This document shows positions 3,637 to 7,880 of a DNA stretch of 20,847 nt, in pieces; the first letter of the stretch is position 1; every line of letters begins with the position of its first letter. The notes below the pieces were generated by a model, which saw nothing but the letters and a program-made list of their open reading frames with translations, was not told the DNA's origin and searched no databases. The stretch is taken from positions 1 through 20,847 of the IMG/VR virus record IMGVR_UViG_3300012936_000232; one strand, given 5' to 3'. Source of the DNA: a virus. The translations under genes were made by a program, and so were the position numbers.

Positions 3637-4227
3637 ATGATGATTATTTCAGAAAGCCAACTAAGAGAAATGATTCGTGAAGAATTATTAAAAGAAGGTA
3701 TTATTAGTGAAAGTGACTTATTAGAAGAAGGAATCATGGATTCTTTAAAGAAAGCTGCAAAAACTCTTGTATTAAGTACTTCATTGATGTCAGGTTTAGC
3801 TGCATGTGGTGCATCTCAGCAACAAGCTAGAAACACAATAGAACAAATGAGAGCAGACATACATGGCAGAGCAGCTCAAAGAGATGCTGCTAGAGCTAGA
3901 AGAAGACAACGACCTGACTTTCGCGGAAGAGAAGAAACAACTACACTAGTGTCTAGCTCAACACAAAGAGCTGACTTTTATGAAGAAGCTCTAAGGATTA
4001 AGGGTGACGAAGAGTTATTAGAATTGATGACTTTAGCCTTTAAGAATACTAGACTTAGACTTAAACCTGAGACATCACAAGAAATACTTGAAGAGGATAG
4101 GCAAAAAGCTAGAGCATTAATTATACGACAGGTAGACTCTTCTACTATGTTTCATGACATTGAAAAAGTTCGAGAAATGGGAAGAAAATTATACGGTTTT
4201 GCGCGTCATAAGGCTGGTTCTAGATAA
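3637..4227 (+). CDS. Tagged, possibly lipid-anchored protein, 196 aa
   Basis: Residues 2-20 are the best example of the tag (IISESQLREMIREELLKEG), and a second partial copy follows at 22-33 (IISESDLLEEGI). Next comes a typical lipoprotein-type segment: basic KKAAK (38-42), hydrophobic TLVLSTSLMSG (43-53) and LAAC with Cys57. The lipobox therefore sits behind about 35 extra residues, unusual for a signal peptide. The remaining part (60-196) is alanine/arginine/glutamate-rich and helical (AARARRRQR near 83-93), then EELLELMTLAFKNTRLRLKPE. The start ATG follows AAAGGATA; a second ATG comes immediately after. It ends four bases from the convergent protease gene, with no obvious terminator between them. 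The anchor is inference; alternatively the hydrophobic stretch is a buried helix in a capsid-packaged protein. Confidence 0.72.
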   Translation: MMIISESQLREMIREELLKEGIISESDLLEEGIMDSLKKAAKTLVLSTSLMSGLAACGASQQQARNTIEQMRADIHGRAAQRDAARARRRQRPDFRGREETTTLVSSSTQRADFYEEALRIKGDEELLELMTLAFKNTRLRLKPETSQEILEEDRQKARALIIRQVDSSTMFHDIEKVREMGRKLYGFARHKAGSR

Positions 4228-4231
4228 AATA

Positions 4232-5059
4232 TTATTCTAATTCAATAATGTCTCTAATAATGTTAAGAGGTGTGGCATAGCTTATTTGATTTATTCTTCG
4301 ATCAACTGAGTGTATTATACCAACAAGCTTATTATTATATAGAATAGGTGAGCCAGAAGAACCTGGACCAGCTGAAATTGTGTAAACATGGTTGTGTTTA
4401 TTTTTTTGACCTGAATATATGCCTTGAAAAATAGGTATTGTTTTTTTGCCAAATATTCCGTAAGGAACAGCAATATTTGTAACTCTATCACCTAGAGTTG
4501 GAAGTTCATCTGAAAGCTGAATAGTTGCGGGAAATGGTCTATCTATATTAAACAGGCAAATATCAGGTTTATCAGGATGAGAGTAAATTGTATTTAAGAC
4601 TCTGTATTTGTTTCCAGATATATCATAAACTGATATGGTTTTTACTGCTTCAAGTGACATTTCATTCATTGCTCCAAAAACAAAAGCTGACATTGCACTT
4701 GTAACAGTCTCATTAATATTATCAAATTCATTGCAAACATGACCAGCAGTAATCATAACAGCTTGATTTTCTTCATTTTCAATTGCGAACGTTGTAGATT
4801 TTGAAGAAAAAGAAGCAGCAAGTTGCATGTTTACTGTTTTTAGACCAAGAAGCATTTCGTTACTTGCGCAAATAGAAGAGTCATAAGCATAATTACATTG
4901 TTCTGTAAATTTTTCTATATCTATAACATAAGATGATACTAGTAAACCTACTGAAGAAATGCTCTGTAATGAAGCTGCTCTTGTTTCTTGACTAAGAATT
5001 AATTCTAAATGACAAGAATTTAAGAAAAGTAATGCTATAATAACTTGTAATAGTTTCAT
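4232..5059 (-). CDS. Trypsin-like serine protease, predicted lipoprotein
   Basis: A 275-residue chymotrypsin-fold peptidase. The catalytic triad can be read directly: His107 in ITAGHVC, Asp166 in PDICLFNID and Ser235 in GPGSSGSP, in the right order and spacing for the trypsin/HtrA/glutamyl-endopeptidase group. The GSSGSP form is closer to bacterial secreted proteases than to mammalian trypsin. Residues 1-16 (MKLLQVIIALLFLNSC) are a lipoprotein signal with Cys16 as acceptor. There is no PDZ domain, unlike HtrA. Residues 20-90 are an unassigned N-terminal part with Cys55 and Cys64. The ribosome site is AAGGAGAAACATT, and a candidate promoter precedes it. It probably acts in the periplasm or at the outer membrane of the infected cell, for example in lysis, envelope remodelling or exclusion. 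The protease call is firm; the role is inferred. Confidence 0.9.
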   Translation of the reverse strand: MKLLQVIIALLFLNSCHLELILSQETRAASLQSISSVGLLVSSYVIDIEKFTEQCNYAYDSSICASNEMLLGLKTVNMQLAASFSSKSTTFAIENEENQAVMITAGHVCNEFDNINETVTSAMSAFVFGAMNEMSLEAVKTISVYDISGNKYRVLNTIYSHPDKPDICLFNIDRPFPATIQLSDELPTLGDRVTNIAVPYGIFGKKTIPIFQGIYSGQKNKHNHVYTISAGPGSSGSPILYNNKLVGIIHSVDRRINQISYATPLNIIRDIIELE

Positions 5060-5140: not shown

Positions 5141-5776
5141 TTACTGTTCAATCTTTTTAATATCTTTGTTTAACGTAGGAGTCGTCCCCATTATAGAAAG
5201 AAACTTTTTTAGTGCCTCTTCAGGGTTTTCTTCTTTTTTTGCTTGTGTATCTTGTGATTCTTGCGAGCTTCCTAATGCATCTTGTAAGTATTCATCAAAT
5301 GATTTATTGTCATTATTCTCTTTAAGTCTAAGAATTTTTTTTAATTTTTTAAATTTTTGTCTTCTAGTAGCCATTTTCTTCTCTTTTCTAGAATTATTTA
5401 CTGCGTCAACTATATAATTTCCAATTTCTTTATGAATTTTTTGTATATTTGCTAGATTTCGTGTTGATACTAAATTTGACCACAATTGAATTAATTCATC
5501 ATATGAAGCAGACTTTGCGTAATTAGCAATATAATTTATTTCATCATGTGATAGTATTTCTGTTTTAAATTTTATAATTAAATCATTAATATTGTAAGAA
5601 CTATCATTTTCATTTATATGAGTTTCATTAGCATATCTTGCTCTCATAGCTGACTTTGCCTTTTTTTTTGATGTATGACATGATACTTTCTCGTTGCTAT
5701 TTTTCTTTTTTAAGACGTATTTGCCTTTTTTACCACTGCTTTGTTTGCATTTTTGTTTAGATATTTTATAAGGCAT
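5141..5776 (-). CDS. Basic protein with short Cys-Lys N-terminal domain, 211 aa
   Basis: Residues 1-50 are strongly basic with Cys10 and Cys33 (KQKCKQSS ... SCHTSKKKAKSAMRARYANE). I remember this short domain from many uncultured marine phage proteins, where it is fused to different partners; its function is not known to me. The middle (60-130) is helical and hydrophilic. A second basic block, ATRRQKFKKLKKILRLKEN (about 136-154), is followed by an acidic/Gln-rich stretch and a lysine-rich tail. It has no membrane segment. The start lies 2 bases after the stop of the lysin gene with no clear Shine-Dalgarno, so it is probably translationally coupled. Nucleic-acid binding is plausible from the charge but not shown. 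A plus-strand frame over 5136-5417 is a shadow. Confidence 0.75.
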   Translation of the reverse strand: MPYKISKQKCKQSSGKKGKYVLKKKNSNEKVSCHTSKKKAKSAMRARYANETHINENDSSYNINDLIIKFKTEILSHDEINYIANYAKSASYDELIQLWSNLVSTRNLANIQKIHKEIGNYIVDAVNNSRKEKKMATRRQKFKKLKKILRLKENNDNKSFDEYLQDALGSSQESQDTQAKKEENPEEALKKFLSIMGTTPTLNKDIKKIEQ

Positions 5777-5778
5777 AA

Positions 5779-6462
5779 CTATCTCGGAAGAAAAACTCTT
5801 GCAGGGGCCCCGCCATAGTGATAAACCATTTGAGAGGCAATATGATCAGAAGCTTCTTGTCCATTACCAAGTGCAACTGAAATGTGTCCGCTTCTGCTAG
5901 TACCTTTACCCCAAACAACAATTGCTCCTGCCGGTAAGTTAATTAAACTTCTTTCCCATACTTCAAAGAAATGTGAAGAAGAAGCAAACTGATCTGCAGC
6001 TTGGTAAGCATGACCACCCCAGAGAAAAGGTCCAGTTATTCTTTCTACAGCATCAGCGACGGCATTATAACACCATCCAACTGTTCCTCTTCTGCTAGCT
6101 TCCCAATATGCTTCGTCGGCAATTCTATTTCCTTTTACTGAATTATAATCACTTTGAGGTAAATTTCCTGTTTGCTGGTTGCTTTCCCAAGAAGATTCAT
6201 CAAGACTTTGTGATGGAGAAATATTTTGCTCATGACAAGAGTTATATATATTTCCTCTTTCAACACAATGACATCCTTCACCATTGCAATAATGTGTTAA
6301 AGTTTGAACACCTGACGTTACTGCATATTTGCTCCAAATACAGCCTAAGCTACATTCACTTCCAATTAAACTTTTTTTAGATGCGTCATTTAATCTTTCG
6401 TTTTCTTCGACTATATTAGAGCAACCTAGTAAAAAAATAAATGTGTACAAAAAAAATTTCAA
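5779..6462 (-). CDS. CHAP/NlpC-type peptidoglycan hydrolase, lipoprotein (lysin)
   Basis: This is a 227-residue cell-wall hydrolase. The C-terminal domain (about 110-227) has the cysteine nucleophile in GWCYNAVADAVE (Cys131) and the catalytic histidine in RSGHISVALGNG (His193), with AGAIVVWGKG before it, as in CHAP/NlpC-P60 amidases or endopeptidases. Residues 1-14 (MKFFLYTFIFLLGC) form a short lipoprotein signal with Cys14, which is unusual for a phage endolysin. Between them lies a Cys-rich segment (Cys37, 41, 59, 64, 66, 76), possibly a disulphide-bonded binding module. The start is TTG, placed by AAGGAGAAAATT. It is next to membrane genes that could be holin or spanin. The domain call is good; lysis role and lipid anchoring are inferred. 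It could instead be a virion or envelope-remodelling enzyme. Confidence 0.82.
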   Translation of the reverse strand: MKFFLYTFIFLLGCSNIVEENERLNDASKKSLIGSECSLGCIWSKYAVTSGVQTLTHYCNGEGCHCVERGNIYNSCHEQNISPSQSLDESSWESNQQTGNLPQSDYNSVKGNRIADEAYWEASRRGTVGWCYNAVADAVERITGPFLWGGHAYQAADQFASSSHFFEVWERSLINLPAGAIVVWGKGTSRSGHISVALGNGQEASDHIASQMVYHYGGAPARVFLPR

Positions 6463-6497
6463 AATTTTCTCCTTTTTTAGTATTATTAAAATACTTT

Positions 6498-7109
6498 TTA
6501 TTTTTTATTAAAATCTTTCCAAAACTGATCATCTAATTGATCGTCTAATTCTTTTTTTGGAGACAAGTCTTTTGGTTTTATAGTAGAAGGAGTAGATTCT
6601 TCAGGATTTTCATCAATTCTAGAGTTAAATGTTCTCATATTTTTTGGTGCATCACTGACTAGCTCTTCGTTTTTAATTTCTTTTGGTATCCACTTTTCTA
6701 TTTCTTTTTTGCTTTTACTGTCAATCCTACCTATTTTCATAAGATTTTCAATTCCAACAAAGATTGAAAGTCTATTTATTACTTCATGTTGTAGACCTTG
6801 AAGTTGCATTCTAAGATTTTCTTTATCCATTTGTGCATCTCTAAGTCTACTAATAAGAGTTGACCTGTCATCATTTAACTTTATAATTTCTTCTTTTAAA
6901 TCTTTTATATCGTCAGGGTCGCGGCCGCTAAAGATAGAAATCATTGATGAGATACTACCAATAATCATACCGACAATACCAACTATAACGTCTTTGTTTT
7001 TATCAGGAATATGCATATAAGTAAAGAAAAATATAAGGCCAATGACCATTACTAAAAATATTAAAGATGCAACCCAGCTTCTTTTTCCTTTATCTGAGAA
7101 CCAATTCAT
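6498..7109 (-). CDS. Two-TM coiled-coil membrane protein, 203 aa
   Basis: Residues 12-32 (WVASLIFLVMVIGLIFFFTY) and about 40-61 (VIVGIVGMIIGSISSMISIF) are two membrane helices joined by a short loop (MHIPDKNKD). They are followed by a heptad-patterned coiled coil (about 66-113, DLKEEIIKLNDDRSTLISRL) and a charged, Pro/Glu/Asp-rich C-terminal tail ending in DDQLDDQFWKDFNKK. The hairpin topology leaves both ends on the cytoplasmic side. Located directly upstream of the lysin gene and 4 bases downstream of the next membrane gene, it is a candidate holin or lysis regulator, but no named holin family is evident. A weak AT hairpin (AGTATT, loop, AATACT; 6479-6495) lies between its stop and the lysin start. 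Confidence 0.75.
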   Translation of the reverse strand: MNWFSDKGKRSWVASLIFLVMVIGLIFFFTYMHIPDKNKDVIVGIVGMIIGSISSMISIFSGRDPDDIKDLKEEIIKLNDDRSTLISRLRDAQMDKENLRMQLQGLQHEVINRLSIFVGIENLMKIGRIDSKSKKEIEKWIPKEIKNEELVSDAPKNMRTFNSRIDENPEESTPSTIKPKDLSPKKELDDQLDDQFWKDFNKK

Positions 7110-7113
7110 AATA

Positions 7114-7383
7114 TCACGCTGACTTTTCGTTTTCGTTTTCTTTCATAATTTCTAAAGTTAAAACTCTTCTGTCAATTGAACTAACTTGTGAAGACATTTT
7201 TTCTTTAGAGTTTTCCATATCAGAGACTTTTTCGCCTAGATGATCAACTTTTTGAGCAATTAAGTCGCATTTTTTTTCGACAACATTGAACTTGTTAGAC
7301 ATTATCCAGACTCCTGCCATGATGGAAGCAATAACAGGTGCACTTTGAGATATTAAATTAAGAACTGCTTCCATTATTTGCAC
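7114..7383 (-). CDS. Small one-TM coiled-coil protein, holin/spanin candidate
   Basis: The 89-residue product has one hydrophobic helix (about 5-29, EAVLNLISQSAPVIASIMAG then VWIM), followed by a long heptad pattern (33-80: VVEKKCDLIAQKVDHLGEKV, SQVSSIDRRVLTLEIMKEN). One TM helix plus a coiled coil is the architecture of i-spanin (Rz) subunits and of some small holins. No matching o-spanin lipoprotein is obvious, although lipoproteins lie nearby (6462, 5059). It overlaps the upstream gene by 10 bases, so expression is coupled. The assignment rests on topology and neighbours only. Confidence 0.7.
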   Translation of the reverse strand: MQIMEAVLNLISQSAPVIASIMAGVWIMSNKFNVVEKKCDLIAQKVDHLGEKVSDMENSKEKMSSQVSSIDRRVLTLEIMKENENEKSA

Positions 7384-7844
7384 TCACAAACTTGTTTTCC
7401 GCATTTAACACAAACAGTATCTTCTAAGTGTGAATCTTCTTTGTCAGATTTTTTACTTTCTTCTTCTTTTTTTTCCAAAGCTTCTTTAATAATTTGTGCT
7501 TCTAGGTCGTCATCAATACCATTGTTGTTTTCATCTTTAATTTGAGGTGTTTCTTCAACTGTTTCAACAAGTTGATTAAGAAGCTTATTTTTACTTCCTA
7601 AATGACCTTTTAACATCATTATAAGAAAAGTTGCGCCACTTCCTCCCATTAAACCTATGAGAAGTTGTTTTCTTGTTGGTTCATTTTCACCATCACAAAT
7701 GAACCATGCTGTGGCAATTCCAATAATTGTAGAGATAAATCTTTGTAAACCTTTTTTACCCTTAAGTTTTAAAGAGCGTTTAAGGCCTTCAGTGCCAACA
7801 TAAGCAACACCAGCACAAATAAGTAATAGTTCTGTAACGGGCAT
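7374..7844 (-). CDS. Three-TM membrane protein with acidic Ca-like and Cys tail
   Basis: Residues about 4-18, 36-50 and 60-79 are three hydrophobic helices (ELLLICAGVAYVG; FISTIIGIATAWFIC; QLLIGLMGGSGATFLIMMLK) separated by basic or acidic loops, a compact phage-holin-like layout. After them come the DENNNGIDDDLEA motif (104-116), which matches the D-x-N-x-N-G-I-x-D pattern of calcium-binding thrombospondin type 3 or dockerin-like loops, a long lysine/glutamate helix, and CVKCGKQVCEC at the C-terminus (Cys145, 148, 153, 155), a possible zinc knuckle. The start is set by an excellent AGGAGGT seven bases before the ATG. A membrane lysis protein is my best guess; both metal motifs are read by eye. 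Confidence 0.72.
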   Translation of the reverse strand: MPVTELLLICAGVAYVGTEGLKRSLKLKGKKGLQRFISTIIGIATAWFICDGENEPTRKQLLIGLMGGSGATFLIMMLKGHLGSKNKLLNQLVETVEETPQIKDENNNGIDDDLEAQIIKEALEKKEEESKKSDKEDSHLEDTVCVKCGKQVCECK

Positions 7845-7880
7845 AACAGACCTCCTATAAAACTAATTATCAATGAGTAA

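Follow-up and report, generated by a model that had tools for sequence, protein, structure and literature searches.

The window analysed here, namely the whole of the virus record IMGVR_UViG_3300012936_000232 (20,847 bases) and probably a fragment, encodes on its minus strand (5779-6462) a predicted lipoprotein of 227 amino acids (aa) with a CHAP/NlpC-like cysteine hydrolase domain, as judged from its open reading frame (ORF), its relatives and a fold comparison. Throughout the family of this protein the anchor and a Cys-rich domain are constant, while the cutting domain is either CHAP-like or an unrelated C39-like one and is exchanged. The gene is a self-standing mobile module found at two loci and is under purifying selection. 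Based on sequence evidence, we give a probability of about one half to the reading that the product is an exported, outer-membrane-anchored wall peptidase, which as a stand-alone, exchangeable module would serve as an accessory envelope enzyme and would act without a holin.

The gene starts with TTG, and a ribosome-binding site, GGAG, can be read from the sequence 6 nucleotides (nt) 5′ of this codon (6469-6472, minus strand, like all features of this gene). The N-terminus, MKFFLYTFIFLLGC-S, holds a hydrophobic segment and the lipobox LLGC14, with Ser as the +2 residue, and by a strict lipobox rule residues 1-14 form a predicted type II signal peptide (6421-6462, Cys14 at 6421-6423). Further Cys residues are located at positions 37, 41, 59, 64, 66, 76 and 131, and a polar linker precedes the C-terminal domain. 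Those between residues 37 and 76 belong to the Cys-rich domain (residues 34-77, 6232-6363), which was delimited by alignment and an AlphaFold model and in which all six are invariant across the aligned family. Its core was modelled with good confidence (predicted local distance difference test, pLDDT, 84-90), and a comparison of the model with the PDB gave no match, which does not prove a new fold. The original prediction, which had described four ORFs, a lipoprotein signal with Cys14 and a Cys-rich spacer, was borne out in these respects: all four ORFs are present at the same positions and on the same strand, the predicted signal includes a Cys14 that is invariant in the four CHAP-type members of the family, and the spacer is conserved.

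The C-terminal catalytic domain (residues 105-227, 5782-6150), assigned by motif and fold comparison, contains GWC131YNAVADAVE and SGH193ISVALG, with Cys131 encoded at 6070-6072 and His193 at 5884-5886. GWC131Y and SGH193IS are invariant in all four CHAP-type members, and the catalytic Cys precedes the His, the order expected for CHAP, which is conserved. The full lipoprotein matched no Pfam or PHROG family. Its catalytic half gave weak matches to phrog_635 (endolysin, E-value 0.03) and phrog_329 (minor tail protein, 0.076), and TIGR02594 was matched at 0.022 by one of the four CHAP-type proteins. Foldseek returned nothing significant for the AlphaFold model, and sequence searches of the PDB yielded no useful match. 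When the Foldseek candidates were compared by VIA-align, the phage endolysin Lys2972 came out on top (Z 5.9), followed by Tae3, Tse1, PlyPy, Tae1, LysK and LysGH15; unrelated proteins appear from Z 3.4 downward, and values below 8 may reflect only a common arrangement. The domain is probably of the CHAP/NlpC-like papain type, with membership of PF05257 not proven. Of the earlier designation as CHAP-type, the motif stands and the fold probably does, on a weak comparison, whereas the profile does not.

Like the CHAP and NlpC/P60 phage endolysins Lys2972, LysK and PlyPy, the window protein probably has a papain-like arrangement, and its Cys and His stand in the expected order; unlike these endolysins, it is a predicted exported lipoprotein with a Cys-rich domain and no PF05257 match. 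Among bacteria, MepS/NlpC are lipid-anchored papain-like wall peptidases, which it resembles in its predicted lipid anchor and probable papain-like domain, differing in that it is phage-encoded and has the extra Cys-rich domain.

Scans of viral contigs revealed CHAP-type relatives in three further viruses (L001, L003 and L006), with the protein of L001 also present in identical form in L002, L005, L013 and L094. These relatives are 64-68% identical to the window protein, and the lipobox Cys, the six spacer Cys, Cys131 and His193 are invariant. Among loci collected around the gene for a protein with two transmembrane (TM) segments, which neighbours the lipoprotein gene in the window, four lipoproteins were found that have only the N-terminal part in common with the window protein; the C-terminal domain of all four is Peptidase_C39_2 (PF13529, E-values of 3e-15 to 1.6e-14). 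After two more scans, the set comprised 20 sequences (19 different) with a hydrophobic N-terminus, the Cys and the six-Cys domain, four of them CHAP-type and 16 C39-type. In L088/L089, L090 and L091 there are also C39 proteins that have such an N-terminus and lack the Cys-rich domain; L088, L090 and L091 are left out of the count of 20, and L093 (weak) and L096 (cut off) were excluded from the lipoprotein set altogether. An hhalign comparison of CHAP-type and C39-type proteins aligned residues 6-81 alone (probability 98.8%, E-value 6.8e-17), whereas the catalytic halves do not align (probability 0.3%). The C39 motifs (Gln, Cys, His, Asp) are present in 19 of 19 proteins. In a tree of the short N-domain the four CHAP-type sequences group together (98/94) and span both loci, with most other forks unresolved. 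The window protein, with its CHAP-like domain, thus has siblings in which this anchor and Cys-rich module are joined to Peptidase_C39_2. Oliveira and colleagues are said to have reported, in 2013, the use of C39_2 in phage endolysins.

Outside this set, relatives are scarce. No match to the lipoprotein was obtained among 50,697 phage records (E-value up to 0.01) or 72,556 plasmid records (E-value up to 1), and two scans of genome contigs with narrow peptide patterns found no cellular relative. Among named phages the C39-type proteins had just distant matches of the catalytic domain, in three cyanophages; in the two of these that were inspected, the C39 gene is flanked by capsid and tail tube genes in one and adjoins a tail-associated lysozyme in the other. 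This proximity to structural and tail genes, together with the weak phrog_329 match of the catalytic half, would fit a virion-borne enzyme that penetrates the wall at entry. Nevertheless, a lipobox signal peptide followed by a Cys-rich domain is what one would expect of a protein exported by the infected cell, not of one assembled into virions, and we regard a virion enzyme as very improbable.

At the first of the two loci (locus A), the lipoprotein gene lies between a DNA ligase gene or a short ORF and an Hsp20 gene, and at the second (locus B) between a helicase gene and a pair formed by a cyclase gene and the two-TM gene. Both enzyme kinds occur at both loci, provided that the window, where the lipoprotein gene directly follows the two-TM gene, is counted as locus B. 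A comparison of L001 with L075 at locus A gives identities of 88.8% for the ligase, 91.8% for a gene of 158 aa and 77% for Hsp20, while their lipoproteins have the N-module alone in common and differ in the catalytic domain. Closely related neighbours around a different catalytic domain indicate that the gene was replaced in place. Between L001 and L003 the CHAP-type protein is 89% identical, compared with 37% for Hsp20, 49% for an 85-aa gene and 70% for the 158-aa gene; that the lipoproteins are far closer than their neighbours points to horizontal movement of the gene. The ratio of nonsynonymous to synonymous substitutions (Ka/Ks) is about 0.1 in both kinds across five pairs (for example 0.055/0.484 for L001/L003 and 0.039/0.288 for L079/L080), which shows purifying selection. 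Exactly one lipoprotein copy is present in each of six large records chosen as carriers, and in one of them (G009, locus L091) it is the divergent C39 form without Cys-rich domain. The 18 large records had been chosen for one gene or the other (six for the lipoprotein, twelve for the two-TM protein), so that 6 of 18 says nothing about how frequent the lipoprotein is.

The strict lipobox rule was applied to 23 lipoproteins, with shuffled N-termini as control. It was satisfied by all four CHAP-type members and by ten of the 23 overall, compared with a mean of 0.09 per 23 for the shuffled sequences. All 23 carry one of Ser, Ala, Thr and Gly at +2 and none carries Lys, and Ala at +7 was found in one (L072). 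For M. xanthus, Lys at +2 is reported in 8 of 12 inner-membrane lipoproteins, along with a tendency of extracellular ones toward Ala at +7 (PMC3222651). As the window protein has Ser at +2, without a Lys or Asp retention signal, its predicted site is likely the outer membrane.

A comparison with Myxococcota is suggested by locus A. In L001, a protein with thrombospondin-3 repeats (5602-6231; L075 6824-7441, and others) follows the lipoprotein gene, and four of four such proteins match NF047638 (MYXO-CTERM cohesion protein MtsC) with E-values of 3e-42 to 7e-49, at partial profile coverage and below the family cut-off. By tblastn, the MtsC-like gene is present in 11 of 13 locus-A viruses, L001 included (alignments of at least 199 columns; L077, whose lipoprotein duplicates that of L076, is omitted from the 13). 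In L079 there is a 44-aa match and in L003 nothing. All ten inspected MtsC-like C-termini consist of a Cys and a TM segment, mostly followed by basic residues. Such an end is described for MYXO-CTERM, a Myxococcota tag (PMC11980579). Among 19 records the MtsC-like protein is found in three alone (G005, G006 and G008), each with the lipoprotein at locus A. A phage-encoded MtsC-like protein with a MYXO-CTERM-like end suggests, on sequence grounds, Myxococcota-like hosts.

The presence of the MtsC-like gene directly after the lipoprotein gene gives some weight to another role, in which the lipoprotein, at locus A with its MtsC-like partner, would act as a guard of the envelope and alter the surface or periplasm, leading to a superinfection block or changed cell contacts without lysis. 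In line with this, the locus-A unit has a conserved leader of its own: in 11 of 12 cases the lipoprotein gene lies behind an intrinsic terminator with its own leader, in which TTGACGAA is invariant. The Llp protein of phage T5 reportedly provides a precedent for a phage lipoprotein in exclusion. Nonetheless, the window has no MtsC-like gene, the lipoprotein is intact in L003 and L079 although the MtsC-like gene was not found in the former and gives just the 44-aa match in the latter, and lipoprotein-mediated exclusion is not known to require a lysin-type hydrolase, so that we consider this guarding role possible though clearly less probable than the wall peptidase. By eye, GTGTAA was also noted about 19 nt 5′ of TATAATA before several locus-A genes in L013 (G003), the lipoprotein gene having no GTGTAA box.

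The combination of a constant N-module with an exchangeable C-domain, and of a MYXO-CTERM/MtsC-like partner pointing toward Myxococcota-like hosts, is also reminiscent of SitA, and one could imagine a polymorphic lipoprotein weapon passed to neighbouring cells by outer membrane exchange. SitA toxins have been described as lipoproteins of modular build that are frequently encoded on prophage-like elements; they combine an escort domain of some 375 aa with nuclease toxins, and their operon also contains an immunity gene (PMC8546572, PMC5562445). Lipobox, constant part and exchangeable enzyme domain are features in common. However, the shared N-terminal part measures only about 80 residues instead of a ~375 aa escort domain, and at the C-terminus there is no nuclease but a peptidase, either CHAP-like or C39. 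The lipoprotein gene is accompanied by the MtsC-like gene (locus A) or, elsewhere, by variable neighbours, none of them noticed as conserved and immunity-like, with no search aimed at immunity genes. A SitA-like weapon therefore appears to us a distant prospect.

The original prediction saw here a lysis block of a lipoprotein lysin and three membrane partners, a reading in which the lipoprotein would be the main lysis enzyme and the membrane proteins its holins or regulators. The genes concerned lie upstream on the same strand. The product of 6498-7109 has two clear TM segments by hydropathy, as claimed, and was further characterized by a profile; 7114-7383 encodes a small protein with a single borderline TM segment (1.61) and weak PHROG matches (phrog_1863, E-value 4e-4, and phrog_4257, 4.9e-4, both of unknown function); and the supposed three-TM protein (7374-7844), for which no relative was found, has one hydrophobic segment above threshold and two weaker ones seen solely at a relaxed threshold.

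For the two-TM protein, the gene associations favour a role in a cyclase module over that of a holin for the lipoprotein, because its family accompanies a nucleotide cyclase of class III type. A profile search found the family at 60 loci. With identical proteins counted once and L054, L071 and L073 dropped (no two-TM ORF in the gene set), 44 distinct proteins remain, and the window is alone among them in having no cyclase-like gene in the locus, which is present for 43 of 43 others. The cyclase gene lies directly upstream on the same strand in 34 of the 44 (gaps of -82 to 47 nt, 18 overlapping), directly downstream in one and one to eight genes away in eight. The PF00211 cut-off was passed by one of four cyclases tested (L018, 1.1e-7; L024, 3.7e-4; L006, 0.096; L062, no match), the first part of TIGR04510 was matched strongly, though below cut-off (1.5e-41 and 6.4e-32), and PycC weakly in two of three (2.7e-4 and 6.4e-4). 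The conserved cyclase and two-TM pair was observed on large viral contigs in L014-L073 (e.g. L018 6105-7468 and L062 6066-7435), the cyclase often ending in a C-terminal TM segment. Pycsar likewise consists of a cyclase and a membrane effector, a system that the pair recalls, with three two-TM proteins giving no match to PADLOC models. In named phages a single weak match was found for the cyclase (25% identity), and the two-TM protein had no match there. Neither the one-TM nor the three-TM protein matched anything in 63 other records compared locally, and single-sequence scans with the two-TM and three-TM proteins yielded nothing; these empty results are weak, since the two-TM family, empty in such a scan, gave 60 loci by profile.

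The four genes share a strand and are packed into 2.1 kb downstream of a candidate late-type promoter, which, together with the endolysin-like catalytic domain, would nevertheless be compatible with a lysis cassette. The candidate promoter motif ATAATTAG was found within 90 nt upstream of an ORF at 7 of 12 sites in G001, compared with 0.5 expected; as the motif was chosen from this same contig, the count is a lead and no independent test. The T4-type late promoter TATAAATA showed no enrichment. Two ATAATTAG sites are present in the window, and because one of them (7863-7870, minus strand) lies 26 nt upstream of the 7374-7844 gene, the four genes may form one late operon. Locus-B relatives also lie near holin-like and lysin-like genes. 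Near the cyclase pair, many loci encode a small, conserved hydrophobic protein (about 83-121 aa; L006 5821-6081 and others, 33 ORFs; signature SKKFIAYL..GWK..ITSGxIQIGYILGQAALDKY); it is holin-like by eye and gave no significant family match in three tested.

Still, the association of the genes is not conserved among relatives: the lipoprotein gene sits beside other genes elsewhere, in L006 it and the two-TM gene are convergent, and the two-TM family accompanies the cyclase. No lipoprotein match was found in the twelve large records picked for the two-TM gene, which may be fragments. The conserved adjacency of lysin with holin or spanin genes that marks a holin-endolysin-spanin cassette is thus lacking, the context varying among relatives. 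Moreover, other lysin candidates are present in relatives: G001 encodes a protein of 425 aa whose CHAP match falls just short of the cut-off (PF05257, 1.4e-6), and Phage_lysozyme is weakly matched by four of six locus-B proteins of 412-470 aa (E-values of 5e-4 to 3e-3, below cut-off), one of these four being from G005, a record that has its lipoprotein at locus A. Given these candidates, the lipoprotein is unlikely to be the sole lysin of these viruses, although the window itself is too short for a judgement. The block of lysin and three membrane partners is accordingly not upheld as a unit, and the lipoprotein as main lysis enzyme is in our view improbable. Phage outer-membrane lipoproteins are known in the form of Rz1-type spanins; the window protein differs from these by its enzyme domain, and no inner-membrane spanin partner was identified. 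An 85-aa lipoprotein-like protein (SLYSC, heptad-like by eye) encoded in L013 (7385-7642), from the same virus as L001, is a possible outer-membrane spanin.

For the preferred reading, a wall peptidase on the outer membrane, the following course is proposed. The lipoprotein would be exported by Sec and lipidated at Cys14 by host Lgt and LspA, and would end up in the inner leaflet of the outer membrane. There the presumably disulfide-rich domain would fold in the periplasm and hold the papain-type hydrolase beside the peptidoglycan, which it would cut without a holin; an exported wall enzyme needing no holin would therefore have to be slow, late or locally confined. Because two unrelated peptidase domains swap, it can be argued that the substrate is a generic one such as peptidoglycan stem peptides rather than a single specific protein. 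The lipoprotein would act in infection as an accessory wall-opening or envelope enzyme, in addition to the lysin candidates encoded separately, and most of the genes next to it in the window would be incidental.

Several observations weigh against this proposal. The PF05257 (CHAP) profile matches neither the lipoprotein nor anything else in the window, and the AlphaFold model from four sequences is of low confidence (pLDDT 43 on average, highest over the last 77 residues with 58-67). Of the 23 lipoproteins, 13 fail the strict lipobox rule; in ten of these Asn or Asp directly precedes the Cys, which makes lipidation less certain in those ten, and the others deviate at another position or in N-terminal charge. 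The location of the lipoprotein would differ under another host sorting system, and the substrate could be a protein instead of peptidoglycan. Finally, the lipoprotein gene of the window follows an operon with a candidate late promoter, as would fit lysis.

With regard to the type of virus, G001, the largest contig with a CHAP-type relative, encodes a terminase, a portal protein and a head maturation protease. Over 93%, its terminase has 40% identity to that of Flavobacterium phage immuto, and numerous T4-like phages appear among the other matches; the virus is probably a tailed phage of T4-like type. A motif resembling M-x-ITE-x-x-LR-x-I-I-R-x-V-I-x-E opens many proteins (window 1296, 2627, 3163 and 3637, plus strand; L001 4458), and similar starts were read by eye in L072 and L048. 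In some, an (L/I)xE site comes next, together with a stretch that is hydrophobic or resembles a lipobox (LMSGLAAC in window 3637-4227). This N-terminal motif may represent a head-targeting propeptide cleaved by the head maturation protease. Two genes from the lipoprotein gene, a trypsin-like protease is encoded (4232-5059, minus strand; PF13365, 5.8e-8; N-terminus MKLLQVIIALLFLNSC), possibly a second lipoprotein enzyme, although the strict lipobox rule is not satisfied. Neither Rfam searches covering five sources nor tRNA scans of the window and of six loci gave any match.

Phage lysins are regarded as soluble, signal-anchor-release (SAR) or virion-bound, with holins setting the timing. Among the open papers and the matches listed, no report of a lipid-anchored phage lysin was found. 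A lipid-anchored, exported lysin-type enzyme with exchanged catalytic domain would be a different route for a wall enzyme to the sacculus. The Cys-rich module offers a sequence tag for finding further such enzymes, and the MtsC-like surface protein that is its partner at one locus a handle on phages of Myxococcota-like hosts. More tentatively, and with doubt prevailing, the family may be seen as a plug-in envelope weapon of large marine phages of such hosts, consisting of an anchor and Cys-rich adaptor, swapped papain-type peptidases and often an MtsC-like partner, and working independently of holins. If true, such a weapon would act on the host envelope from the side of the outer membrane, remodelling or opening it, in a form of lysis or exclusion unlike that of soluble, SAR or virion lysins.

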